A stretch of 64,000 nucleotides of DNA from Gossypium raimondii (Eukaryota > Streptophyta > Magnoliopsida > Malvales > Malvaceae). Location: positions 59,405,980-59,469,979 of the forward strand of contig NC_068575.1 of assembly GCF_025698545.1 (NCBI RefSeq), given 5' to 3'. The translations under genes were made by a program, and so were the position numbers. Positions 3,991 to 63,781 of this stretch are shown here, one piece after another. The notes under the pieces were generated by a model, which saw only the letters and a list, made by a program, of their open reading frames with translations, was not told where the DNA came from and did no database searches. The first letter of the stretch is position 1. Each line of letters starts with the position of its first letter.

Positions 3991-6263
3991 ATGGCTTCTC
4001 AGTCTCATAATTTTTCCGGAAATTATTTAGTGTTGAGGCCAAACGAAGTGAGTGTTCTCGATCTTTTCCGCCTCCTATGGGACCATGAACTTGAAAAGAA
4101 AGCCTTTGTGGAGTGCCCACCGGAGAAATTCCAGGAAAATATCCGCCGGAAATGGCTTATTTTCATGTCTCTATCGTCCCAAAAGATGCTTCTCCATGCA
4201 GCGAAGCCCCTGAGATGGATCGGCGAAAAGCTGGAAATGTGGGTGAACTTGGTCTCATTGAACGACAACATTTTCGTGCTTTTCTTCAATCTTTTGCGAG
4301 GTTATAATTAACCCACATTAACAGATAAATTGCTGTAAATAAAAACAGAGAATGTGCATGGATTGATGATTAGCTTGACTACAGGTAAGGTGAAAATGGT
4401 GGATCGAGAATCGGAAGCTTTCGTGTCCTTCATTGGAAGCCTAGATAGGCGAGTTGAATTAGATCAGAATATCAAACCTGGAGATTGCAGATACTTTGGA
4501 GCATTGGCGGCTATGGCGGCTAAAATTTCTTACGAGAATCAAGCTTTTGTTGAAAGAGTTGTTAGGGATTACTGGAAGGTAATTTCTTTAAAATTTTAAT
4601 TTATTTTTCTGAAAACTCGTGTACGCTGCATGCAATAAGTTAATGCATATATTCTTTTCTGTGTTAAAAATGAAGTGATTTCTGGAATTTGGAAGGTCGG
4701 GCAAATTTCATTGTTTACAATTGTGATGCCTTTTGTCTGATTTTTCGACTGTTGGATGGATTATATATCGTAGTTAATGGGATATATATATATATATATA
4801 TATTACTACATATCTAATTTTACTATTTGAAAGATCAAATGTTAGTCAATATAAATTATTTAAAAAATTATACATTTTAATATTTATTGAACCTACAAAA
4901 TACAAAAATAACGTTTTTTTTGTAATTTGTAGTCAAACAATTGATGACAATTCTTTTTACACTTTAACATCCTTCTTACAGTTCTTTTCCTATCCATCCA
5001 TTTAAAATAATAGATCCAATTGATTGAATATTGAATATTGAATATTGAATAATATGAAGAGGCTACCAATTGGTGCAGATGGAATTTATTGGGTACTACT
5101 GCTTCTGGAATGGTAAGAAAAAATCCAATCTTTCACAAATATCTCGCTCGTATTTATATTTGTAAGATCATAATTTCTGTATCTATATTTTAAAAATAAA
5201 TAAATAAAGAATCGGATCCACATAATTCTTTTATTATTTACAAAATTAAACTCCGAAGCACGGAAACTCCTTTAGCAGATTATCAAAAGAAGAGCAACAC
5301 GCAAGCCTTTATGGTCCACGATAAAACAACAGACATGATAATCGTAGCCTTCAGAGGAACCGAACCCTTCAATGCAGATGATTGGAGCACCGATTTAGAC
5401 CTCTCCTGGTACGAACTCGACGAGATGGGAAAGATCCATGGCGGATTCATGAAAGCTTTGGGGTTAGTCATGGAAAAAGGTTGGCCACCTCACATCGACG
5501 ACCACCGCCGCTCACTGGCTTACTACACCATACGGGAGAAGCTGAAACAAAAACTGAATCCGAACAACGAAACCAGATTCATGGTGGCTGGTCACAGTCT
5601 GGGAGGGGCTTTATCGATATTGTTCGCGGCTGTTTTGGCGTTGCATAAAGAAACGTGGCTGTTGAATAGAATGGAAGGGGTGTATACGTTTGGGCAGCCG
5701 AGGGTCGGTGACAAGAAGTTCAAAGAGTTCATGGAATTACAGTTGAGGAAGCATGGGATTAGGTATCTGAGATATGTTTACTGCAATGATATGGTCCCTA
5801 GAACACCTACCGATGATTTGACCTTTCTGTATAAGCACTTTGGGGCATGCCTTTACTTCAATAGCTGCTACAAAGGGAAGGTGAGAGTCCCAAAAACCTT
5901 TAACACATCGGATTATTGTTTCGGTTTGGTCAGTTTTCTGGAATAATGAAATCTGATTTTGTGGAGCAGGTACTTGAGGAACAACCCCACAAGAATTACA
6001 TCTCACTGTTTGTATGGATACCCAGATTCTTGAATTCGGGATGGGAACTTGTAAGGGGGTTCATTCTGCCATTGATAAAGGGTCCAGAATATAAAGAAAC
6101 TTGGTCGCTTATTGTGCTTAGATTATGGGGACTTGGTTTCCCAGGCCTATCTGCTCATAATCCCCATGAATATGTTAATGCAACTCGATTGATTTCTCGT
6201 CGGATATATCACCAACTTCAACATCATCGCCATCCATGGAAAACTATCAATGGATATGCCTAA
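3991..6263 (+). CDS. OBL1-like triacylglycerol lipase, gene 2 (5 exons, 477 aa)
   Basis: Exons 3991-4300, 4385-4578, 5079-5112, 5279-5880 and 5970-6263 join in frame with GT..AG introns and end at TAA. The product is a class 3 (alpha/beta hydrolase) lipase of the OBL1 group, which hydrolyses acylglycerols at oil bodies or membranes in plants. The N-terminal about 105 residues carry hydrophobic segments (around 50-75 and 85-103) instead of a signal peptide, in keeping with a membrane- or lipid-droplet-anchored lipase. The lipase core follows: FRGTEPF near 204, the nucleophile elbow GHSLGG at 284-289 (Ser286), FGQPRVGD near 317, Asp350 in YCNDMVPR, and probable catalytic His443 in AHNPHEYVN. 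The length matches the family and the neighbouring paralogs. No break was seen. By motif (MVH or MSY in place of MFRDK; KHG/RHG) it groups with the gene at 37917. The exact substrate cannot be read from sequence. Confidence 0.93.
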
Positions 6264-8959: not shown

Positions 8960-10988
8960 ATGGAAGCCAAACCCAGCAAAAAAGACTTGTACACAAGTTA
9001 TTTGCTTATAAACCCTAAGGAAGCCTCTCTCTTTGACATTTTTAGCGTCTTATTTTCCAGAAATGTAAAGAAGAGGAAATTCATCGAGTCCTCTCTTGAA
9101 GAACTAGAAAGTTTCCTGTACAGGCTTCTTATAGTCATTTCTGCACTGATACAAAAGTTTCTGCTAAAGTTATCCATGCCGATGGCGATGATAGGGAGAA
9201 CCATAGTGTTTTTACTCAACTTTTTCTACATTAATGGTGGCTTCTTTGGTCTCATAAGAAATATCATGCAAGGTATATAAATATTTATGTCCTTCACTTT
9301 GAGATATTAGCTTTGGGTGCAATAAATATAATCATGTCTGGTTGTACGTTGAACAGTGAGGGTTGTGATTCCAGACAAGAAGGCTGCAACCTACCTCTCT
9401 TTTGTTGGATTTACAGACACGAGAATGGAGTTAGATATTAATATTAAATATGGAAATGCCATGTATTATCCAGCACTCTCGATTATGGCTTGTAAAGCAG
9501 CTTACAATAACGCTGCTTATAACCAAGCTCTTATCGAAGGTCAATGGAAGGTATGTAGGACGATGGTTTCCTTTTACTTACTGTTATTTATAAAAGAAAT
9601 TAGGTTAATATTCATAATTGGACTTACAGTTTGCTTGGTTCGTGTGCAGATGGAGTTCTTGGGATATAAAGATTATTGGAATGGTATCCGATTACCTCTT
9701 GATTTGCAGTATAATTAATTATTTTCAACTTATATTAATGGAATGATTTGTTAATTAATTGTTAATGACATGGACAGATTTCCTTGGAAGAGCCGATACA
9801 CAAGTTGTAATGTTTCGAGATAAAAGTGTTGACCACGACACCATTGTTGTGTGCTTCAGAGGAACACAACCGTTTAATTCCGAAGATTGGTGTTCGGACG
9901 TTGATTTGTCATGGTACGAATTCCCTCACATTGGAAAAGTTCATAGCGGTTTCTTGAAAGCCCTGGGGATGCAAAATAATGCAGGGTGGGCGCAACAAGT
10001 GGACCACGATTCAGCTCACCCTCCACGCCGAGCACCCTTGGCTTACTACGACATAAGGGATACGTTGAGATACCTTTTGCAACAGAACCCCGAAGCCAAA
10101 TTTATAGTGACGGGCCACAGTTTGGGCGGGGCGTTGGCAATTCTTTTCCCGGGGATACTGTTTTACCATGACGAGGAATTGTTGCTTGAGAGGATGGAAG
10201 GGGTTTACACGTTCGGACAACCCAGAGTTGGGGACGAAGCGTTCGGGCAGTACATGGAGGAGAATTTCAGAAAGAATAGGATTGAATATTACAGATATGT
10301 TTACTGTAATGATATGGTTCCTAGGATTCCTTCTGATGGCCTCTTCAAGCACTTTGGTACCTGCGTTTACTATAACAGCCAATATCAAGCATCGGTAAGA
10401 AAGTCAACATCATACATATTTCAACAAATTAAAGGGGTTTTCAATATAGCTTATAAAAAATTATGTTATTTCCCGTTGATTGGAAATCTTGTTTAGGGTT
10501 AAATCTAGATAACATAATCCTCTTCTCCTTCTATAAAAAAAAATAGTTATAATATATTATTGTGGTCAATTCAACCGACCAGAGTTATCATCTTAAATGT
10601 AATAGTCAAGACCCAATTTAGTTACTAAAAATGCCGAAGGCGACATTATTTAATCAAGCCTTTCTTGAAAGAGCTTGACCCGGTCTGATGAATTGGGAAA
10701 TGTATGCAGATAGTTGAGGAAGAACCATACAAGAACTATTTGTCAATTTGGGGCTCCATTGACATGCGAAGAAACGCCATTTATGAGCTGATAAGAAGCT
10801 TCATTATGTTGACCAAGTATGGAGCAGATTACAAGGAAGGGTGGCCGCTATTTTTTATCAGAATCTTTGGATTGATGATCCCTGGTATACCAGCTCACTG
10901 TGCCCAAGATTATGTCAACTCCACTCGTCTTGGATCCCTCCGCCATCTTCATTTCCATCCTTTCCACCATAAAAAGAACCGTTCCTAA
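8960..10988 (+). CDS. OBL1-like triacylglycerol lipase, gene 3 (5 exons, 478 aa)
   Basis: Exons 8960-9272, 9357-9550, 9650-9683, 9778-10394 and 10710-10988 give one frame from ATG (MEAKPSKKD) to TAA. Intron positions and phases equal those of gene 2. The N-terminal hydrophobic region (about residues 55-100) is followed by the lipase core: CFRGTQPF near 206, TGHSLGG at 292-298 (Ser295), [11 protein letters not shown], Asp in [10 protein letters not shown], and His in [14 protein letters not shown] near the C-terminus. The start was chosen because gene 4 begins with the same MEAK motif; the GTG nine bases upstream is not needed. A copia element is inserted about 150 bp after the stop and may supply or disturb the 3' end. 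It is most like gene 4. The biochemical role (acylglycerol hydrolysis) is inferred from family. Confidence 0.93.
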
Positions 10989-11320: not shown

Positions 11321-14300
11321 ATAAGTTGTTTTCTTTAATGGCAACAGATGCAGTTTCAGGTAATGATAATGGTAACCATCCCTCCATTCATATTTCCTCT
11401 TCTGATCCTGATCCTGGGTGTGGTTTTTTGAGGAAAATTTAGCAGTTTCCCAAACATGATACAATAAAACTAGGTGAGCGTAATTTTCTGTTGTGGAAAC
11501 AATAAGTCTTGTTGATTCTTGAAGGGTACGGACTACAAGATTTCGTTCTTGGCACTGTTAGTGTTCCTCCACAGTCTCTTGTTGAAAGTGATGGCAATCT
11601 TGTGGCTAATCCTGACTTCTTGGTTCACAAACAGCAAAACAAGCTGTTGGCTTCTTGGCTGTTATCCACGATTTTTGATGATATTCTGGTACATCTTGCT
11701 GATGCTCGTTCGAGCTTTGATATCTGAAGTGCTGTTATTCGGAGGGTTGCTACTAAATCTACTATGTCAGTCTCTACTTTACGACATACTTTGTATTCTC
11801 AAAAGAAAGGGCATCTCACCATTAAAGAATATTTGTCCAAGATAAAAATTTTGTTTGACACATTGGTTGCTGCTGGTCATCTCGTGTCTGCACTGGAACA
11901 TAATAGCATTATTCTTGCTGGATTGCCCATAGAGTATGAATCAATCTGTGTTGTCGCTTCAGCAATGCCTGTTTCTCTTGATCTTCTTGCTGAAATGTTG
12001 ATTAATTGTGAGGCTTGACAGCAAGACTCAGTTTTGAGCATGCCTTTGCAGGTTAATATGGCTCAACAAAGTGCAACTAATGCCAAAAATACTGAGCAGC
12101 TTGAAAGTGGTTCTCGACCACCTTATAGAGGCCGTGGCTCTCGGTCGTTTCGAGGCAGAGGTTAAGAAAGGCGTTTTGCTCACAATAAGCCTCAGTGTTA
12201 GTTGTGTGGTCGCATTGGTCATACAGTTTAGAAATGCTACTACAGGTTTGATGAGTCATTTGAAGGTGTGTCCAACCAACCTATGCAAGCTCATTGTCAT
12301 CAGTTTCAGGATATTTCAAACTCATTTTGTGGAGGTCCTCATTGATGTTCTCAAAAGCCCTCTGTGCATCATTCTGACTTGCAAGTCAATACTACTTCTA
12401 CAAATAGTCATTTTTCTACAGGATCTTTGAATACAAAGGTCTGGTATCCCGACTCCAGAGCTTCTAATCATGTTACCAGTGATCTGGAAAATTTGCATGA
12501 GGCTACCCAATACACAAGTAACAACACGCTCTTCATGAGCAATGGTATGTCTGTGCCAGTAGCTAACATTGGGTCTTCTTCCTTTGCAAGTTCTAATAAA
12601 GTTTTTCATCTGAAATGTGTATTGCATGTCCCACAAATCTGCAAGAACTTATTATATGTTGCTCAATTTGCTAATGATAATCAAGTTTTATTTGAATTTC
12701 ATCCATTCCATTGCTTTGTGAAGGATATCAAGACAGGGAAAATACTGCTGGTGGGCCGCATTCATAATGGCTTGTATCAGTTCGATTTGTCAGACACTCA
12801 AAGCTGCACTGCTGCATTAGCTTCATATACTACTGTTCACACCACCTCCCTAGAGCTACCTGGTTCTAATGTTTCATTTTTTGACCTGTGGCACAAACGC
12901 CTTGGTCATCCTTGTAATAAGACTATTATGTCAGTTCTTCAAAAATGTAATCTTGCTTCAAAAGTTTCAATGATGAATTCAATTTGTTCAGCATGTCAAC
13001 TTGGCAAGTTTTATAAGTTACCATTCTCTCCTTCTACAACTGTGTACACAGCTCTTTTTGAGCTTCTTGTCTCTGACTTATGGGGTCCTGCTCCTATGGC
13101 ATCTGAAGGATATTTTTATTATATTTCTTTTGTGGATGTACACTCGATGTACGTTTGGATCTATCTTATCAACCGAAAGTCTAAGGCTTTAGACAAATTT
13201 CTTCAATTGCAGAAATTGGTGGAGGTTCAATTTGGTTGTAAAATTAAAGCTCTTCAAATAGATTAGGGATGAGAGTTTCGTTCTTTTCCAAAGGTTCTTT
13301 CTCGACTAGGGATTCAGCACAGGTTGTCTTGTCCTCATACATCTGAACAAAATGGTTTGGTTGAGAGGAAGCATAGACATTTGGTTGACACTGGACTAAC
13401 CTTGCTAGCTCAAGCTAACATGCCTATGCACTTTTAGGCTCATACCTTCATTAGTGTTGCATATCTTGTAAACAGACTTCCACCTACAGTTCTAGCTGGT
13501 AAGTCACCTTTTAAAGTATTGCATAAGACTGTGCCAAGCTACAAGCATCTAAGCGTGTTTGGATGTAGGTGTTATCCTTATCTTAGACCATTTAATACTC
13601 ATAAACTTCAATTTTGGTCCAGACCATGTGTATTTCTTGGTTATAGTCTTGTTCACAAGGGATATAAGTGTCTTGTTGACAACAGCAGAGTGTTTATTTC
13701 TAGGCATGTGGTTTTCAATGAGGGGTGCTTTCCTTTTGGCAGTTCTGCTAGCTCTACTAGTGATTTGTTACACACACAATTTGGTTTACAGCATCAATGG
13801 TCTTCAGTTCCAGTTGTGGTGCCTTTTAAGGGTCACTCCAGGTTAGTTCTCCTAGTGTCTCTATTTCCTCAAATCACCAGGTTTCAGGTTGCATGTCAGG
13901 GTCTGCTCCTTCTCATTCTACTCCACTCCCCTTTAAGTCCACTAGTTTTCGAGTGCAGCCTCATACTCATACTTCACCAGGGTCTGCATCTTTCAGTAGT
14001 AATTCTAATTCTGCCTCATTTTCTCTTCCTGATCTTGTCATTCCTCCAGTTTTGGTTGCTCAGAATCCTCCTGTCAACTCCCATGTCAATGCTCATCCTA
14101 TGACAACCAGATCCAAGAATGGTATTTTTAAGCCCAGGGTGTTCTCTGCTGAGCTGAGTGAGACAGAGCCTGCTACAATTGACAAGGCCCTTGCGAGCAA
14201 AGAATGGGCGCTCGCAGCTTAACAAGAGTATGATGCTCTCCTGAAGAATGATACCAAGGATTTGGTTCCCTTACTAACAAATCGACGAGCTGTGGGGTGT

Positions 14301-29132: not shown

Positions 29133-30897
29133 ATGGAGGCCAAATTGAGCGAGAAAGTGTATTGTTCAAATTATTTGGTAATAAATTCTAAGGAAGCCTC
29201 ATGGTCTGATACTGTTAAAGTCTTATTTTCTAGTAATTTAAGGAAGAGAAAATTTATCCACTCCTCTTTTGAGAGACAGGAAAGTGTCTTCTATAGATTT
29301 CTTATAGTCATCTCTGTGCTCTTACAAAAGCTTCTGCTTAAGATAGCTTTCCCAGTGAAGATCATGGGGAGTATCATAGTGTATTCACTCAACTTTCTCT
29401 ATGCTAATGGTGGCTTCTTTGGTCTCATAAGAAATATCTTGCACGGTATATATCTTTACGTCCATTTCTTCTATCATTATTTTCGACATTATTTGGAAAC
29501 TGACGAACCAACCTAATGATGTCCTGAACAGTGAAGATTGTGATTCCAGACTATAAGGCCGCAACATTTATGTCTTTTATCGGATTTATAGACATGAGAA
29601 CCAAGTTAGATAGTGATATTAAATATGGGAATCCCATGTATTATCCAGCAGTTTCCATCATGGCCTGTAAGGCGGTTTACAATAATGCTGCTTACAATAA
29701 GGCTTTAATCGAAGGTCAATGGGAGGTATAAAGAGGGCTTTCGTTTCTTCTATTGTTATTATTTGTAATACCATTGAATTTTACATTCATTATCAATGTT
29801 TGTGTGCAGATGGAGTTTTTGGGATTTAATGATTATTGGAATGGTACCCAACCTAACCTCTCGATTTTCAGTATATTTATTTATAAATTTGATTGTTTCA
29901 TTATAAATTATAATGACTTTTGGGCAGATTTCCTTGGACAAGCTGACACACAAGTTGTCATGTTTAGAGATAAAAGTGTTGAACACGACACCATTTTTGT
30001 GTGCTTCAGAGGGACACAACCGTTTAATTTAAATGATTGGTGCTCCGACATTGATCTGTCATGGTACGAGTTCCCCAACATCGGAAAGATTCACTGCGGT
30101 TTCTTGAAAGCCTTGGGGATGCAAAATATTGTAGGATGGGCGCAAGAAGTGGAGTTGGAATCAACCCACCGTCCACGCCGAGCAGCCTTGGCTTACTACG
30201 ACATAAGGGATAAGTTGAGAGTTCTTTTGAAAAAGAACCCCAAAGCCAAATTTGTAGTGACGGGACATAGTTTAGGCGGTGCATTGGCCGCGATTTTCCC
30301 GGCGATTTTGTTTTACCACGACGACCAATTGTTGCTTGAGAGATTGGAAGCGGTTTACACGTTCGGACAACCCAGAGTTGGGGACGAAGCCTTTGGGAAT
30401 TACATGGAGAAGAATCTGAAAAAGCATGGGATTCAATTTTACAGATATGTTTACTGTCATGACATGGTTCCTAGGGTCCCTTTTGATGGCATCTTCAAGC
30501 ACTTCGGTACCTGCGTTTACTACGACAGCAAATATCAAGCGTCGGTAAGATAAATTATAACAGTTTCCTATGTATTAACTTAAATAATTTTTGAGAGGAG
30601 AAATAAATGGTGGGAATTGGAATGCAGATAGTTGAGGAAGAAGTACCATACAAGAACTACCTGTCGATTCGGGGCTGTTTTACCATGCGAAAGAACGCCA
30701 TTTATGAGCTGATAAGAAGCTTCAGAATGTGGACCAAGTATGGAGAAGATTACAAAGAAGGTTGGGTGCTGTTTTTCCTTAGAATTTTCGGACTGCTGGT
30801 TCCTGGTTTGCCACCTCATTGCTCCCAAGATTACGTCAACGCCACTCGTCTTGGATCCCACCACCATCTTCTTTCCCTTCCTTTCCACCATAACTAG
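29133..30897 (+). CDS. OBL1-like triacylglycerol lipase, gene 4 (5 exons, 475 aa)
   Basis: Exons 29133-29445, 29532-29725, 29810-29843, 29928-30544 and 30628-30897 join in frame and end at TAG. The start MEAKLSEK matches the MEAK start of gene 3; an upstream in-frame TTG is not needed. Hydrophobic N-terminal segments lie at about 55-100. The catalytic set is TGHSLGG at 292-298 (Ser295), Asp in YCHDMVPRVP, and His in PHCSQDYVNATRLG. A small difference from the others is CHD in place of CND before the Asp. Introns 2-4 are all about 83-85 bp; the last is much shorter than in gene 3 (315 bp). Closest paralog gene 3. Role inferred as acylglycerol hydrolysis at oil bodies or membranes. Confidence 0.93.
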
Positions 30898-33098: not shown

Positions 33099-36000
33099 AT
33101 GGAAAAGCAAGAAGAAAGCAGGGAATGCGACAAGGGTTTCTCTTGCAGTTTCATGCTATTGAAACCCGAAGAAGTTAAATTCATTGATCTGTTTCGGATC
33201 TTGTTTTCAAGTAACTTGGAGGACCGGAAATTTGTGGATAGTTCGTCGGAAACTGAAGAGAGTTTCAGATACCGATGGCTGATATTCATCTCCATTCTGG
33301 CCCAGAAGATGCTCATGCTTACGTCCAAGCCAATGGCATGGATGGGATCCAAGATCGAGATGTTGCTAAATCTTCTCGCTATTAACAACTTCCTTGTGCT
33401 CCTACGAGGTATTCATCTTTCTTTCTCTGCTATCAACGCTCATAGAATTTGTTTTGCATATGATGTTCTTGATGATCCTTCACCAAAATTTTTTTCAAAT
33501 AAAAAGTCGTCTCAGTACTACTTCATAGATCACTGCAACTGGTTTTCATCATTAAAATCTTGAGCATCAATTAATTATCAAACCACCAAATTAATTAAAA
33601 GACAATGAATTTTCATACTACTGTTGTCCCAAAAAAAGGATTTTCTTGGTATGAATTGTCTTGTTTTTTAAAATAATTATCACTTTACTTAATGTCGCGT
33701 TGATTAAGATATTTCGTTAATTTATTACGTGATGACTTTAGTTTCAGAGTTAATTGTATAATTCTTTTTATTATAAAGGAAGCTAATAGTAAAAACTTTT
33801 AATGTTTCCTTTAAACTTGGAAAGTGAACAGAACATTGCCTTTTACTTTTATTGGTTTGTGGGATTGATTCTTTTGTTGACTTACTGTGTGAGAAAACCA
33901 AAAGGAAAGCTAGTGGTACAATACATTATCAAAATTTGTAATGATAAGATTAAACTTTGTATATTAAATTAATTGGTAAATTGGACCTTTCATCTTTAAT
34001 GTAATTCACATAGTACATCACGTGTATCTTATGTCAACATATAAAATTAATTTACTCATTTTTAAATAAAAAGATAAAATTCTAGAAAATAAAAACCCAT
34101 AGATTCAATATATAAGCCATCATAAAGATACTTAATAAAAACTTTAACTGTTTTTTAATGATGCTTTTAATCTTCGTTATACTGGCAAAAAGTAATTCAT
34201 ATTAAAATGGGTTCATAAATTATCCGTAATATAATATGGGTGAAAAGTTTAATAATATATACTTATAAAATATAATATAAAATTTTAGTAGTTTTTATTA
34301 AATAAGGGACTTATTTGAATCGATTATTTAAGAAAAGTTATTTAAAGTAGTTAATTCTTTTTATAAAATAGTTATTTGTTAAATATAATGATAAGACACG
34401 AAGAGAATTTAAGACAATATTATTAGAAAAATTCCCATTATATTTTTTTATTTTTCTAAATTATGATAGGATATGGATGAAAGAATTTATAAAAATATAT
34501 ATATTTATTGATTAAATCATAGGTGAAATGATAAATCACTCGTACACAAACTAGGTTCATTTTAATTATTAATTATTAATTGTTTTATTTAAAAAATAAT
34601 ATAAGACAAAAATTTAAAAAAAAATCAAATTGATTATTATTATGGATATAAATTAAATAATAGTTTGGTCCACTATTATTTAAATCGATGAATGTGGGCC
34701 CATGTCGGTGGTGCACCAAAGCCTACCTACCCTGCTCCACTATTTTACTACGGTCACTTAGCAGCCTCCTTCCTTTTTTTCTTAATTAAAATTGAATATA
34801 GTAAAAGTCCTAGTTCAAGTCTCCTCATCTGCATCTTTTATCTTAAAAAAAATTTAATAGTAAAATATTTAAATTTAATTATAAAAAATATAAAATCAAT
34901 CAAACATTTTTGTACCGCTTTATTTCTGGAGAAATTATTACATGGTCCCTTCCGATAATAAGTGTTTTTTACATGTCACTTCTTATTTCTAATTCGTCGC
35001 ATGCATCTCTATCTTGCCTTCCTTCTCCCTCCGTCTTCCCTCTTCCTAACCACTAGAGAATCACAGAAGAAAACCCAGTACAGAAAGGATGAATCAAAAG
35101 AAAATAAGAAACGATAGAAAACCTAAAAAGTATGACTTAATGTTTTCTGATATCTTAATTCATGAACCTGCATTTTCTGGAATGAATTTTATGGTGGTTT
35201 GATTAGAAAGAGACCATGTTTGAAGGGATTTGGTGCGAAAATAAGATTGACATTTAAAAACATGCTTATGTAAAGATTGACTTGTGTGTCTAAGGCATTT
35301 TTGGGTGTATATATAAAAGAATATAATCTTCTGAAGATCCATCAAAACTTAAAAAAGAGTTCAACATACATATACTTATTTGGAACGATCATACCTGAGT
35401 ACGTAACATAACAGTTCTGCATGTCGAACAATCAATAATGTAATCTTTTTTCCCCATTTCCATACAGGAAAGACTAAGAAGCCAGATAAAGATTCGGCAA
35501 CATTCATCTCTTTCATCGGTAATATGGACAAGAGAATGAAGCTGGACAGTAAGATCAAACCCGAACATGGATGCCACTATTATTCGGCACTGTCGATGAT
35601 GGCTTCCAAAGCATCGTATGAGAATCGAGCCTACATTGAAACTATTGTCAAGGATCATTGGAAGGTATATATGAAAGAACTGAGAGAAATTGTATTGAAA
35701 TATGACAAATAATTAACTCCTTTTGTAATCTTTTTGGCAGATGGAGTACTTGGGGTTTTTTGATCACTGGAATGGTAAGACCCGATAATTTCTTCAAGCT
35801 TGTTAGACTTAAATCCGCAATGGGGATGCATCACCATTTGTTTGCGTGTGTTTGGTTTGGCAGATTACCAAGAAAAAGCCACGACGCAACTCTTCTTTAT
35901 GCGTGATAAAAGTGAAAACCATGACACCATAGTTGTTGCCTTCAGAGGAACGGAGCCATTCGATGCAGATGCATGGTGTTCGGACTTCGATTTGTCTTGG

Positions 36001-36827
36001 TATGAGCTTCAAGGAATGGGGAAAATCCATGGCGGATTTATGAAAGCTCTAGGGTTACAAAAGAACGTAGGGTGGCCAATGGAATACAAAGCAAACGAAA
36101 CCCGGAAAGAACCCTTAGCTTATTATTTCGTTAGAGACAAGTTAAAAGCACTCTTGAGCGAAAGTGAAAACACAAAGTATATATTGACAGGTCATAGTTT
36201 GGGCGGGGCATTAGCCATTCTTTTTCCTTCAATTTTGTTTCTCCATGAAGAGAAATTGTTGTTGCAGAGATTAGAAGGGGTTTATACATATGGCCAACCT
36301 AGAGTCGGGGACGAGAAGTTCGGGAAATACATGGAAAGCAAGTTGGAAGAACATAAAATACGTTATTTCAGAATTGTTTATTGCAATGATATGGTGCCGA
36401 GGTTGCCATACGATGACAAGGATCTTTTGTTCAAGCACTTTGGCACCTGCGTCTACTATAACAGGCACTATCAAGGAAAGGTAAGACATTGTCCCTTTCT
36501 ATCTTTCATTTGATAAACAAAAAAAGGTTGCAAGTAATAAATGTGTAGTTTTTGTGGCAGGTTGTAGCAGAAATACCAAACAAGAACTATTTCTCACCGT
36601 TGTCGGCAATACCAATGATGATAAACGCCATTTGTGAGTTGATAAGAAGCTTCACTATATGTTATTCAAAAGGAGCGGAGTACAAAGAAGGTTGGTTTTT
36701 AAGAGTTTTTAGGATAATTGGATTGGTGATCCCTGGAGTTTCAGCTCATTCTACTCAAGATTATGTTAACTCTACTCGTCTTGGTTCCTCCGATGTTTTT
36801 CTTCCATCCGAGGAAACGATTCCATAA
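33099..36827 (+). CDS. OBL1-like triacylglycerol lipase, gene 5 (5 exons, 474 aa)
   Basis: Exons 33099-33408, 35468-35664, 35741-35774, 35864-36480 and 36561-36827 give one frame ending at TAA. Intron 1 is 2,059 bp, far longer than the 84-492 bp seen in the other copies. The N-terminal region has the same [14 protein letters not shown] hydrophobic stretch. Core motifs are AFRGTEPF near 206, TGHSLGG at 289-295 (Ser292), [11 protein letters not shown], Asp in [10 protein letters not shown], and His in [14 protein letters not shown]. Exon 2 is one codon longer than in the others. The motif MRDKS places it nearer to genes 3 and 4, while the GGFMKALGL text is like genes 2 and 6. Function is inferred from family. 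Confidence 0.92.
33409..35467 (+). other. Long first intron of lipase gene 5
   Basis: Intron sequence with no ORF that continues the gene. It is AT-rich throughout, with a less AT-rich patch near 34,690-34,760 and 34,980-35,050. No complete transposon could be outlined by eye. Confidence 0.6.
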
Positions 36828-37916: not shown

Positions 37917-40137
37917 ATGGCTGTTAACAAATACCAAGCAGACCATTATTTAATGCTGAAACCAGATGAAGTGAGTATACGGAAGGTTGTTCGATTATTA
38001 TGGAGCAAAAGAATGGAGGAAAACGATTACTTTTATATACGAGAAAGTGATGAAAAGGAAGATTTCATTGAAAAGGGACTTGCCATCGCCTCGCTCGCAG
38101 CTCAAAAGGGTCTGCTCCATGCTGCCAAACCCTTGAAATGCTTTGGACAAAAGCTGGAGATGTGGTTGAACCTCGTCTCCTTTAACACCAACATTTTCAT
38201 GCTCTTCTTCAACACTCTGCGATGTTAGTCACTCCTTTCTTTCTTTTCTTTCATGTTACATTATCTTTTCGACAAAAATATTGATTTTATTCAATTTTTA
38301 AAAATTTATTTTAAAATTTTTATATTAGAATTTGAGTAAGATAAAATTATTTTAAACAAAATATATTATTAAATTTAAATTAATTTAAGGTTAGCAATTT
38401 ACAAATATGAATAAATTGACCTATTTTTATTACAAAACTGTACTTAAGTAAACATGTATGATATACATACGTTAGCCCAACACTAACGCTTGCACCAAAT
38501 TTTAATATGTATATGTTGAATATTTTTAGCCATAAATTTTGAGATGAGATTATTATGTTAAAATTCAATTTGCCAAAGTTTATTTGTAGCAATAGTTAGA
38601 ACTCTTATTTGATACTTATATAATACGAATTCAAACCTTATTATCTCCCTTCCCCTTCTCAATTATGTAATGATAAAAAAACATTTCATTAACATATTAA
38701 TTTGTAAGTATTTAGGTAAAGTGAAAATTCCAGAGCGTAAATCAGATGATTTTATGTCGTTCGCGGGGTATATAGACAAACGGGTTAAATTAGATGAGAA
38801 GATAGAACCTGGAAATGCGAGATATAATTCAGCACTGGCTATAATGGCGGCTAAACTAGCTTATGAGAATAAGGGCTTTATTAGGAACACAGTTGAACAA
38901 CATTGGAAGGTAATTTTCCTTCCTGCCTCTTAATTATGGATGATATAACTTGTTTATCTCACTTTGAAGAGTGTACATGGTGCAGATGGAATTCATTGAT
39001 ATGGACACCGACTTTTGGAATGGTATCAAATTCCATTTCTATTTTTGTTTCTTTTGTATTAATTTCAAATTTATATACACAAAATTAATTATATTAAATT
39101 TGGACAGATTATTTAGAGAATTATCATACCCAAGGCTTCATGTCTTATGATGAAAGCGTGAATATGATAGTGGTATCTTTCAGAGGAACAGAAGCTTTCA
39201 ACGCATACGATTGGTGTACGGATTTCGATATCTCCTGCTTTGAAAACCCGGAAATGGGGAAGATCCATGGCGGATTTATGAAAGCTTTAGGCTTAGTAAT
39301 GGAACATGGTTGGCCACCTCATCTCCCTGCCGATAAACGAGACAAGAACTTGGCTTATTATGCCATAAGAGATAAGCTTAAAGAAAGGATAGATTTAAAC
39401 AAAGAAACCAAGTTCATAGTGACCGGTCACAGTCTCGGCGGTGCATTGGCGGTATTGTTCCCTGCGATCTTGGCATTGCATGGAGAAACAAAGTTGCTGG
39501 AGAGATTGAAAGGGATTTACACGTTTGGACAACCCAGAGTTGGAGATGGCAAGTTTAAAAGTTTCATGGAAGAACAAGTGCTGGATAGACATGGCGTTAA
39601 ATATTTGAGATTTGTTTACTGCAATGATTTGATTACCAGATTGCCTTTCGACGATCCTGTAACTTCCCTTTACACCCATTTTGGAACTTGCCTTTACTTC
39701 AACAGCTGCTATAAAGGACAGGTGAATGGTTTGAATTAAACACGCACAACAATGGTCGAAACTGAGATTGATTTTAACAATTAATTTATTTTTCACTTTG
39801 GGGTTTGCAGATACTGCCCGAAGAACCACACAAGAACTACTTTGAAACGTTTGGAGGAACTCGGAGGTTCTTGAATGCACTGTTTGAGTTAGTGAGGTGT
39901 CTTTATCTGCCATTGTTGAAAGGAGGAGATTACAGAGAAGGTTTAGCGATGATATTGATAGTTAGGTTTAGTGCACTGGCTTTTCCAGGGGCGGCGGATC
40001 ATAATCCTTTGGATTATGTTAACGCAACTCGATTGGGATCCAAGGAAGTATTTCAAAGTGCTGAATCTTCCAAGAAATGGCTCAAAAATTCAGCAACTTC
40101 TGGTCGGGAGGTCCAAGATAAGATTAAATATTGTTGA
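37917..40137 (+). CDS. OBL1-like triacylglycerol lipase, gene 6 (5 exons, 492 aa)
   Basis: Exons 37917-38223, 38716-38909, 38986-39022, 39108-39721 and 39811-40137 join in one frame to TGA. Exon 1 ends CGAT before the donor, so the codon across intron 1 gives Cys where the others have Gly or Val. The N-terminus has the conserved LLHAAKPL..FGQKLEMWLNLVSF hydrophobic region. Core: SFRGTEAF near 203, TGHSLGG at 285-291 (Ser288), FGQPRVGD, Asp in YCNDLITRLP (others have NDMVPR), and His in DHNPLDYVNATRLG. It also has DISCFEN where others have DLSWYE. The C-terminal tail after TRLG is longer and charged (..GSKEVFQSAESSKKW..). All triad residues are present, so activity is likely. Closest to gene 2. 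Confidence 0.92.
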
Positions 40138-45015: not shown

Positions 45016-45176
45016 AACTGATGAAGCAAACACAGTGAGAGTGAGGACCTCCTTCATTTCCTCTCTGGGGATGGCAATTCTTAACCTCTCTTCTTCTCTT
45101 TAGTTGTTCTTATTCTTAATTCTAGGTTAGATTTTTGTTTTCTGTTTTCTTTTTACGTAATTTGCCGATAATCGGA

Positions 45177-47451
45177 ATGACTCAAAGGTGTGTTCCGGCG
45201 CCTTTCTTGACGAAAACATACAAGCTGGTGGACGATCCCATCACCGACGATGTGATTTCCTGGAATGAAAACGGCACATCGTTTGTCGTCTGGAATATTG
45301 CTGATTTTGCTAAGGATTTGCTTCCCAAGTATTTCAAACACGACAACTTTTCTAGCTTCGTGCGTCAGCTCAACACTTACGTAACTTCTCTATTTCCTTA
45401 CTTTATTCTAAACCCTTTACTAATTGCATTAAAAGTCTATATTCCATTATTTTGTTTTTAAAATAAAATATAGATAAACTTAATGTTAGTGACAGAATAT
45501 TATCGCTTAAACTGTAAATGGTTGCTTTTCATCATATTCCTGAACTAATTAAATAAAGAATAAATTATTAAATAATCACTTTTGTTTACCTCGGGTTACA
45601 TTTTAATGACTTATATATATTTAAAATCTTATATTTTAGTTATTTACGCTATCATGTTGTAACATTTTAGTTCTTGAGTTGTTAATTTTAGTTAACGGTG
45701 TAATGATAAGTGACGTGGCATGTTAAATCATCATTTCAAACAAAAATTTTACGTTTATTTATACAATTGGTCCCCATATTTTTTGTTTTAAGCAATTTAA
45801 TTTTTTATGTTCTTTTAATTTTCCTTTTTTTTCATTCTCTTCTCTTCTCCTTCTATTTTCCCTATTATCTATCTCTTTTAACATTGTTTTCTATGTTTGC
45901 CATTTGTTAAAACTAGTTCCTATATTTTTTATTTTTTTGAATAATTTAATTTTTTCGAGTGAGGCAAACTTGTGGATTAGTTTTAACAAATGGAAAACAT
46001 AGAAAAACCACATTAAAAGAAATGAAGAAAGGAGGAAAACAGAGGGAGAAGCAGAAGAGAATGGAAAATAAAGAAAGAAAGAAAAAGTTAAAAGAACATT
46101 AAAGAAAAAAACTAAATTGCTCAAAATGATAAAATATAGGGACCAATTATAGAATTTAACCTAAAATTTTTATTTGAAATTATGATTTAACGTGCGATGT
46201 CATGTCAGCTTACCATTACACGGTTAACGGTAGTTAATGACTTAATGATTAAAATATTACAACACGATAACAAGTGAGTAAAACGTAACATTTCAAACAT
46301 AAATTACTAAAATATAACCTGAGTCAAACAAAAGTGACTATTATAATAATTTACCCAATAATACTTTATCCTTCTACTGCTTCTATTCAAAACACAATTA
46401 TTTAGTTATTTTAAGGCAAGGGTTATAGTTTTCATTTTCTCCTTTCTCGATTAATGAAATTATAGATCCTTTGTCTTTCATAATATTGTTAAACGTACTA
46501 CAACATACATTCAATTTTAATTTCTTTATTGAAAAATAGGTAAATTAATGGGTGAGAAAATAATCTCTCTATTAAATGTTTATTTTAGTGTTTTATACAT
46601 AATATAATAGTAAATTCAATATTCAATATTTACCTATTTATTCAATTAAGTACTTTTAAAATTTTAAAATAAAAACAAATACTTTTTCTACTAACAAGCA
46701 TCCATTTTAAAAAAAAAAAAACTGAAAGAAATATATTCTTTTAAATATTTATCGTTTTCCTTTGCAGGGATTTCGAAAGGTTGTCCAAGACAAATGGGAA
46801 TTCGCAAACGAGAACTTCAAGCGAGGGCAAAAAGAGCTATTGTCCGAAATGCGCCGTCGGAAGGCAGTGACACCATCTCCGGCGAACGGTAAAACGCCTG
46901 CTGCTGTTCCTTCCTCCCCGACTAAGTCCGGAGAGGACCAAGGGTCCACTTCCACGTCATCACTGGACTCGAAGAATCCAGGATCAGTTGAAACGAAGCA
47001 GGAGACAATGAATGTATTCTCTAATTTATCAAACGAGAACGAAAAACTGAAAAAACATAACGAGTTGTTGAGCTCGGAGCTGGCGCAAGCGAAGAAGCAA
47101 TGCGACGAGCTGGTGGCCTTCTTAACCGAACGTGTGAAGGTGAGTCCCGACCAATTCAATCGCATCATGCGGCAAGGAAGCTATGATTCCACCCGTGATG
47201 ACGATGATCATGGCCGTAGGTACGGTGCTGGTGATCCTGATGACCACGATCACGATGATGACGACGAAAATGGTAGCCAAGATTGGAACGGAAGTTTGAA
47301 ACTGTTTGGGGTTTGGTTGAAAGGCGCGGGAAAAAAGAGGTTGCCGAAGGAGAAGAAAATTGTGTACGGTGAGCCATATGCTAAGCAGATGAAGACCGTA
47401 GATTTTAACCACGCGGGAATGAGAATGAAAAGCGGCAAAGTTTGCAACTGA
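45177..47451 (+). CDS. HSFB1: Heat stress transcription factor B-1 (HSFB1/TBF1 type), 295 aa
   Basis: Exons 45177-45380 and 46768-47451 join after QLNTY|GFRK, the conserved intron position in the DNA-binding domain of plant HSFs. Residues 6-100 are the winged-helix DNA-binding domain ([15 protein letters not shown].., [18 protein letters not shown]). Residues 150-190 form the HR-A/B coiled coil ([17 protein letters not shown]). An Asp/His-rich acidic stretch lies at about 211-235. KLFGVWLKG (246-254) holds the LFGV repressor motif of class B HSFs, a basic [10 protein letters not shown] (256-265) is the likely nuclear signal, and the chain ends GKVCN like Arabidopsis HSFB1 (SKVCN). It acts in the nucleus as a repressor or modulator binding heat-shock elements, linked in Arabidopsis to growth-defence switching. 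The start is [10 protein letters not shown]; an upstream in-frame alternative at 45135 is unlikely. Assignment to B1 rather than B2 rests on LFGVWLKG and the VCN end. Confidence 0.93.
45559..46356. mobile_element. Approximately 800-bp near-palindromic foldback element in the HSFB1 intron
   Basis: The two halves are inverted copies. AAATTATTAAATAATCACTT at the left end matches the reverse of ..GTGACTATTATAATAATTTA at the right end. The centre holds TTTCTATGTTTGCCATTTGT against ACAAATGGAAAACATAGAAA, separated by about 55 bp. Intermediate blocks (AATTGGTCCCCATATTTT against ATATAGGGACCAATTAT; TTCATTCTCTTCTC against AGAAGAGAATGGAA) also pair. It occupies more than half of the 1,387-bp intron. It has no ORF and is probably a non-autonomous DNA transposon. 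Confidence 0.85.
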
Positions 47452-61749: not shown

Positions 61750-61757
61750 TATAAATA
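61750..61757 (+). promoter_or_regulatory. TATA box of the CEP gene
   Basis: TATAAATA lies 111 bp before the ATG. A second TATA-like run (TTTATATAATA) lies about 60 bp before it, after a TGCATGC (RY-type) word. Confidence 0.55.
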
Positions 61758-61860: not shown

Positions 61861-62172
61861 ATGGAATTTAGACCCATGCATAAGTTTGCTGTTTTTGTTG
61901 TTGCAGTGATTGTTTGCAGTCATTTAGTTTTCTCAGTCAATGCAAGACCAATGAAATTGCTGATCGATGACTCCGCAATGCACAAAGCAGATCATCCTCA
62001 ACCAAATGCTGAGCAAGTTTTGCCACCCTCTATACCATTACCAGCTAAAACCTCAGGTTTGGGTGAATCAGTGAGGGGTTTCAAAGATGACTTTTGGCCC
62101 ACTGCACCGGGGAACAGCCCCGGTATCGGACATTCTTTCAAAGAAGATAACGATGAAAGGAATGAAGAATAA
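61861..62172 (+). CDS. CEP (C-terminally encoded peptide) precursor, 103 aa, likely cut short
   Basis: Intronless frame from ATG to TAA. Residues 1-28 are a secretory signal peptide (hydrophobic VFVVAVIVCSHLVFSV, likely cleavage after NA). A variable, Pro-rich spacer follows. Residues 77-91, DFWPTAPGNSPGIGH, are a CEP domain (consensus DF.PT.PG.SPG.GH). CEPs are secreted 15-residue hydroxyproline peptides perceived by CEPR receptor kinases; they control root growth and systemic nitrogen signalling. The frame stops at 62,170, but the same frame continues to 62,292 with a second CEP domain (separate entry). It is either a recent nonsense allele or a precursor that now releases one peptide. Assignment to the CEP family is firm; the particular member is not identified. 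Confidence 0.9.
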   Translation: MEFRPMHKFAVFVVAVIVCSHLVFSVNARPMKLLIDDSAMHKADHPQPNAEQVLPPSIPLPAKTSGLGESVRGFKDDFWPTAPGNSPGIGHSFKEDNDERNEE

Positions 62173-62292
62173 CCGGCAAGTTTTAGGTCCACTAATGGCA
62201 AGCATGCCCAAGATTTCAAGCGTACAAGTCCAGGGCACAGCCCTGGAGTTGGTCATGTTTTTTCAAGCAAAAATTCTAAGAAAAATGTCTAG
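62173..62292 (+). pseudogene. In-frame continuation of the CEP gene holding a second CEP domain
   Basis: Directly after the TAA the same frame stays open for 39 codons to TAG 62290-62292. It contains DFKRTSPGHSPGVGH, a full 15-residue CEP domain (codons 118-132 from the ATG), then a basic end (SSKNSKKNV). Many CEP precursors carry two or more CEP domains followed by a short tail, so this is most simply the original C-terminus, lost by one nonsense change. The stop context is TAA-C. Intron removal of the stop is possible but no fitting GT..AG pair was seen. Confidence 0.85.
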
Positions 62293-63781
62293 GTACCATT
62301 TAAAAACTTTGTAATAGCAGTGGATTAAAAAGAAGTAGTTCCAATAATCACGTAGGAAATGCATGAATGCTCGTAGGTTTTAAAGACAGAGGTTCGAGTT
62401 CAGATGTAACAAAATAATTGTCCCTGCTTAATTTGAGTCATGAACTATACTCTTTGCAATCTTTGCTTTCATTCATATTAATAAATTGTTTCCAACTTTA
62501 AGAAATTAAAACAAAAACCTCTCTATGTATTTCCCATATTTATATTTGAATATAGATAATAAACGAATTTTAAAGGCGAGAAAAAATTCTCAATTTCATA
62601 TGAGAACGCATTGATCCCCACTTGTCACAAATCGAGCCATCAACAATTAATTTCATAAAATCATTTGGTTAAAATTCTCATATGAAATAAAATACATGCT
62701 CAAAATTGTTACAGTTCATCTATATATTTATCATACTTCAACTCCGGAGAATTTTCAGATAAGTTTTTGTTTTTTCTTCCATATCTATTTAACGATTCAT
62801 ATTTAAAATTTACGATTACCCATTTCAACAATGTTATCTCCGATTATTAAACTAGTATTATTTTTAATCTTCTTGAGGGCTAGTATTATTTTTTATCTTC
62901 TTCAGGGTGTAGTGGCCTTTACTATTACTCCAACACTTGTTGATTTACTTTTCATTTGTTCAACATATTAAACCTTTAATATCTCGATTAAATTTAACTC
63001 AACTGGCATAAACATTATATATCACCAATATAAGTAGACATAGATAACATAATAACCAATACTATTTAATCTAATTTAGCTTCGCAACTTCTTCTAAAAC
63101 TCAATGAAAACTACAATTTCTCATATTGAATATCATAGATGATGATGCTCCTTGACCGTCATGGCTTAACTAGTCATCTCTCACTAGCTAGTGCTATTGC
63201 CCTTCCTCCAACATTCTCGATAAATAACATTGGTCGATAAAATTCTACTTACATCGATGATTCTGCCATGATCATTTAATATAACAAGCGATGCTTGTCT
63301 CTATTGAAAGCACAGTTGCTTATGCTATTGCTTCTTTCAATAACTCACAAAATGGAAATGATACTTTATATTTTATAATATTATAAACTAGTAAATATAT
63401 TTTGTTCTCCAAAATGATAAAATTGTAATTTAATTCTTTAAAAATTATAAAGATATAAATTAATATAATGATGAAATTACATTTTAACTCTCATTAAAAT
63501 ATATAATTTAATTCTGACCTCCTCAAAAATAATTTTTTACTTCGTCCCTCTCCATCATCAACTCAAACAAATTACCAAAAGATCAAGGGTATGGTTAAAT
63601 ATTTGCATGAGATCAGAACGATATCTGATGAAAATGAAGTTGTTTGCTCGCCAATTTCTTTAAAAGAGTTGGAATAAAAATCGTCCGTGGTCTTTGATAT
63701 GATTTTCATGAAATATCTATTTCAATTCGTGTCAGTAATAACCCAAATTAAAGTTTTCGTTTCTACTTATTAAAAAAAACT
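62293..63781. other. 3' flank of the CEP gene, no further gene
   Basis: AT-rich. At about 63,420-63,545 sequence similar to the AT-rich parts of the 54,000 repeat is present, ending in ACTTCGTCCCTC. Nothing else recognised. Confidence 0.5.

Follow-up and report, generated by a model that had tools for sequence, protein, structure and literature searches.

A Gossypium raimondii CEP gene that probably lost its last peptide domain to a nonsense change

Overview

In this report, we will focus on a CEP precursor gene whose reading frame is interrupted by a single TAA, behind which a second CEP domain lies in frame. The gene sits in a 64,000-nucleotide stretch of Gossypium raimondii DNA, here called the window, which corresponds to C11:59405980-59469979 of a 750.8-Mb assembly of 281 contigs. 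It is most probably a truncated but otherwise intact single-domain CEP gene, which a nonsense change has made out of a multi-domain precursor. The evidence that carries this reading comes from the relatives of the gene in the same assembly; the main alternatives are those in which domain 2 is still produced, through an error in the assembled sequence, splicing or read-through of the stop.

The interrupted frame and its two domains

Translation of positions 61861-62292 (+ strand) yields 103 residues, one TAA, 39 further residues and then a TAG, so that the coordinates, the codon number and the tail length given for this frame in the earlier note were right. The precursor ORF (61861-62172, +), counted with its TAA, encodes 103 amino acids, made up of a hydrophobic N-terminus that looks by eye like a signal peptide, a variable region and domain 1. 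CEP precursors are described in PMC10773996 as short proteins of about 80-200 amino acids with an N-terminal secretion signal. Codon 104, placed by translation and by alignment to the paralogs, is the in-frame TAA (62170-62172, +). It is followed by an open frame of 39 codons plus its stop (62173-62292, +) that is akin to the paralogs' C-terminal part and is closed by the TAG at 62290-62292 (+). A possible TATA box (TATAAA, 61750-61755, +) lies 111 nt upstream of the ATG and a possible polyadenylation signal (AATAAA, 62480-62485, +) lies downstream of domain 2, both being motif matches. In the main texts searched, the exact sequences of the two domains matched no paper, and we found no printed account of this locus or of a CEP domain behind a premature stop.

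Both domains were delimited by translation and motif. Domain 1, DFWPTAPGNSPGIGH, occupies 62089-62133 (+) and carries the SPG[V/A/I]G[H/N] core preceded by PTxPG of the cotton group I motif (PMC11050269), with N for H ahead of the core, as in the paralogs on C2. From its sequence, the precursor is accordingly classed here as a putative group I CEP. Domain 2, DFKRTSPGHSPGVGH, occupies 62212-62256 (+); its core is intact, but it departs from the same motif at position 4, where Pro is replaced by Arg, and it has Lys at position 3. The earlier note called this domain consensus-perfect, which is too strong, as 17 of the 23 listed domain copies keep Pro4, the others having His (3), Arg (2) or Ala (1) in a hand count that includes the window gene's own copies. 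For comparison, DFRPTAPGHSPGVGH is the commonest of 1,223 CEP domains that were surveyed in PMC4197245, a source in whose available text multi-domain terms have no match. The Arg4 alone is not a proof of decay, because the uninterrupted gene C12:13727253-13727567 has as its single domain DFRRTSPGHSPGIGH, which is identical to domain 2 at 13 of 15 positions, including Arg4. This gene differs from the window gene in having one domain, no interrupting stop and a different N-terminus. The second domain (D2) of the pea gene PsCEP1 is likewise without Pro4 (PMC9739355).

Chance is not the explanation for domain 2, since it forms with domain 1 a 32-nt direct repeat of 72% identity at a spacing of 123 nt and since a search with the post-stop text also recovers other CEP genes (best E after the self-match, 8.1e-5). 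Pfam returned no family for either the pre-stop or the post-stop protein (2 proteins, E up to 10), and therefore the CEP name rests on the motif and on the paralogs.

Relatives in the same assembly and the origin of the stop

A protein search of the gene's own assembly gave 11 matches, including itself, among 21 scored candidates. The 10 further matches have E values of at most 7.1e-6, and all 10 lie in ORFs with the CEP core motif. The seven closest-scoring paralogs are multi-domain CEP genes that are clustered on C2, at 1.62-1.73 Mb, and that have an N-terminus of the MEFRPMH type and a second domain, or what remains of one. These genes (C2:1721780-1722208, C2:1718492-1718899, C2:1647533-1648171 and four more) resemble the window gene in the N-terminus, domain 1, the linker and the end, but unlike it all seven are open at the column of the TAA, where they have AAA (five), AAC (one) or CAA (one). 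The post-stop text shares with them a P-x-S, the NG[K/E/N][H/R] linker, the GHSPGVGH core (in six of the seven) and a similar short end, whereas the DFKRTSP half of the last domain is kept in the window gene and is absent from the C2 cluster genes. Three of the latter have a middle domain, and one has its last domain deleted.

Because all seven of these paralogs are open at this column, the TAA is most simply taken as a derived nonsense change, a polarity that is drawn from the paralogs of one assembly. This supports the view of the earlier note that a CEP domain once read in frame was severed by the stop and now makes up the downstream text. None of the seven, which are paralogs and not the orthologs that the note wished to see compared, stops at codon 104 with a decayed domain behind it, the pattern that the note had set against its own proposal. 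The ancestor would thus have been a multi-domain group I CEP gene in which a single nonsense change, one base away from the AAA or CAA codons of six of the seven paralogs, cut off domain 2. The mRNA would still yield a prepropeptide of 103 residues, out of which domain 1 may be released, so that the gene could still make this first peptide, while domain 2 would lie untranslated in the 3' UTR and drift. We do not find credible the opposite history, in which a 3' UTR with a chance CEP domain would have been opened by stop loss in the paralogs.

Loss of the last domain appears to recur in this family, since C2:1624322-1624876 lost its own separately, by deletion. The domain loss seen here would be an event of a familiar sort, because the domain count varies between orthologs elsewhere: the legume group I precursors PsCEP1, PsCEP7, MtCEP6 and MtCEP9 have two CEP domains each, and CEP6 and CEP9 have one domain versus two between pea and Medicago (PMC9739355). 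The difference is that, for these legume multi-domain genes, the available text of the same source describes no intact domain behind an in-frame stop.

Gossypium raimondii has 35 CEP genes, and over half of the cotton CEP genes are found in clusters (PMC11050269). Another CEP gene, of a different type and with the domain GVRPTKPGHSPGVGH, lies at C11:59470187-59470501, about 200 nt past the end of the window. It is on the same strand as the window gene and about 1.9 kb downstream of it, so the two form a small CEP cluster. On C2, the closely similar CEP genes C2:1623595-1624233 (+) and C2:1624322-1624876 (-) stand tail to tail, ~90 nt apart. Some 35 kb separate the CEP ORFs C2:1692136-1692441 and C2:1657559-1657864, whose products are the same but for one residue; this would suggest that a segment was copied recently, or that gene conversion took place, within the C2 cluster.

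Copy number and the possibility of an error

The earlier note also considered that the stop could be specific to one subgenome, with a homeolog to compare. This is not supported by the DNA search, in which the best candidates were scored and a single copy of the locus turned up. The next match by score in the assembly is 66% identical over query positions 127-567; those that exceed this identity are all shorter, the highest reaching 84% over 45 nt. The same search bears on a sequencing or assembly error, in which case the true base would give a sense codon and the gene would make both peptides. The intact state of domain 2 and of its end is what one would expect from such an error, but this would have to be a single substitution that keeps the frame and lies outside any homopolymer, and no near-identical second copy that could have been mixed in was found among the best DNA candidates. 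We thus regard an error as unlikely.

Persistence of the tail and age of the stop

The earlier note argued that a free-drifting sequence would not keep both the domain and the frame. This expectation does not hold when neutral evolution of the 120-nt tail is simulated (20,000 runs per step), with an assumed transition share and an assumed indel rate of 0.1 per substitution, 75% of the indels breaking the frame. The core, the frame and the end all survive in 28.5% of the runs at 0.04 neutral substitutions per site and in 4.7% at 0.10; when indels are not counted, survival is 11.3% at 0.10 and 4.1% at 0.15 substitutions per site. Under this model, the intact tail would demand no selection, and its survival limits the age of the stop no more closely than to some 0.10-0.15 neutral substitutions per site. 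Before the stop, the window gene is separated from the C2 paralogs by a dS of 0.50-1.05; the lineage is therefore long, and the simulated bound puts the stop only in its later part. On these simulated bounds, the stop need not be specific to this accession, as the earlier note had suggested it perhaps was.

One measure counts against a plain loss. In hand-anchored blocks, which are the alignable parts (20 of the 39 post-stop codons, 8 in one paralog, and 36 of the 103 pre-stop codons), dN is 0.11-0.20 after the stop versus 0.25-0.33 before it, and constraint after the stop would also give this result. Much of the history that is common to the window gene and its paralogs precedes the stop. When the alignment is taken as a whole, conservation is no higher after the stop, with 7-17 identities of 22-39 positions there versus 44-49 of 85-87 before it.

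Splicing, re-initiation or a separate gene

Domain 2 could still be joined to the signal peptide if an alternative intron removed the TAA. An unfiltered count of GT and AG dinucleotides, in which the sites carry no score, gives 37 in-frame GT-AG combinations of at least 60 nt across the TAA, some of which would leave the N-terminus with domain 2. However, the last GT before the TAA is at 62123, which leaves none after the end of domain 1, and therefore each intron that removes the TAA deletes or cuts domain 1; the site scan found no GT-AG intron that removes the TAA while sparing domain 1. The candidate introns are only 51-59% AT, and in each of the seven C2 paralogs a single open frame runs through the site. 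Such splicing is thus scarcely probable. As for the downstream domain being a separate gene or belonging to another frame, we found no support for it: there is no in-frame ATG after the TAA, and in the alignment the post-stop text falls on the C-terminal part of paralogs that are single ORFs, which puts this possibility practically out of the question. The lack of an in-frame ATG after the TAA also led us to reject re-initiation. Among viral contigs, 8 pattern matches were found, none of which is a relative.

Read-through of the stop

If some ribosomes decoded the UAA, the gene would make a two-domain precursor and domain 2 would still be secreted. The frame and the core are intact past the stop, the lower dN of the post-stop blocks is in line with this, and the 120 nt after the stop fold into a stem-loop (z of -2.10; 9 of 200 shuffled sequences reach at least this stability). 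UAA is also known to be read: in the context of TMV it is decoded in plants as tyrosine, and in the Drosophila gene hdc 20% read-through of a UAA is reported (PMC2754532). Finally, the stop is preceded here by an A, a base that is enriched in Arabidopsis read-through transcripts (PMC11062462).

The sequence around the stop argues in the other direction. Three types of read-through context are described in plants: UAG followed by CARYYA (type I), UGA followed by CGG or CUA with a stem-loop at about 8 nt (type II) and UAG with a G/purine octamer and a 3' structure (type III) (PMC5382211). The context found here, GAA TAA CCG GCA, fits none of them. UAA can also serve in a fourth class, that of the luteoviruses, which requires a tract of CCXXXX repeats (PMC5382211), and no such tract is seen by eye at the stop of the window gene. 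In the TMV context, UAA or UGA in place of UAG gave less read-through, and none was left once the C after the stop had been changed to G (PMC2754532). From these TMV-context results it would follow that the C after the stop matters but is no signal by itself, and that UAA is not proof against read-through. In Arabidopsis, the read-through transcripts prefer UGA and, according to the review PMC11062462, are enriched in A or U on both sides of the stop, and thus not in C after it, as here. The suggestion of the earlier note that a TAA followed by C is a weak context, which may at times be read through, is consequently not supported, as UAA CCG GCA falls outside types I-III, although read-through of UAA is known elsewhere.

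The stem-loop does not make the case stronger. The strongest helix in the 120 nt after the stop is domain 2's own palindrome, a 12-nt inverted repeat that is 92% complementary, with a 3-nt loop (62225-62251, +), and that lies inside the domain and begins 53 nt past the TAA. Domain 1 shares the core of this palindrome, and so do the domains of paralogs whose frame is open at the column of the TAA. We therefore disfavour the hairpin as a read-through element, since the palindrome arises from the PG-x-SPG codons and is common to the C2-clade copies without the stop. These codons form palindromes at 62107-62123 (CCGGGG..CCCCGG) and 62230-62246 (CCAGGG..CCCTGG), with a paired change between domains 1 and 2. 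Of the 23 domain copies, 11 have the complete palindrome, and each of these belongs to the window gene or to the C2 clade; the 12 others do not have it complete. Shuffling gave p values of 0.005 and 0.022 for the two pairings, which are no evidence of covariation because the rows are related copies.

As drift alone would keep the tail long enough in the simulation, we consider functional read-through very unlikely. We give even less credence to the more specific proposal that the TAA is a regulated leaky stop dosing two CEP peptides, in which domain 2, of the KRTSPGHSPG type, would be made only when termination is inefficient. Production of domain 2 by read-through would amount to a new means of tuning hormone peptides, but there is little here that points to it.

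Other features of the window

The window also holds a tandem array of class 3 lipase-like ORFs, at 5200-5943, 9759-10493, 29732-30550, 35779-36510 and 39098-39736. They were recognized by eye from the GHSLGGAL motif; Pfam was run on 9759-10493, which matches Lipase_3 (3.8e-36). Retrotransposon pieces lie amid the lipase genes at 12346-14219, with Pol_BBD and GAG-pre-integrase matches in 12346-13263 and the rest assigned by eye. A partial heat-shock-factor DNA-binding domain is found at 45126-45458 (Pfam HSF_DNA-bind, profile positions 1-59 of 100).

Implications

If loss of the last domain by a nonsense change is the right reading of the window gene, it would have a practical consequence for the way in which CEP peptides are counted, as surveys based on ORFs would find one domain at this locus where DNA homology scans would find two. 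It would also provide a further example of multi-domain plant peptide genes losing their copies one at a time.
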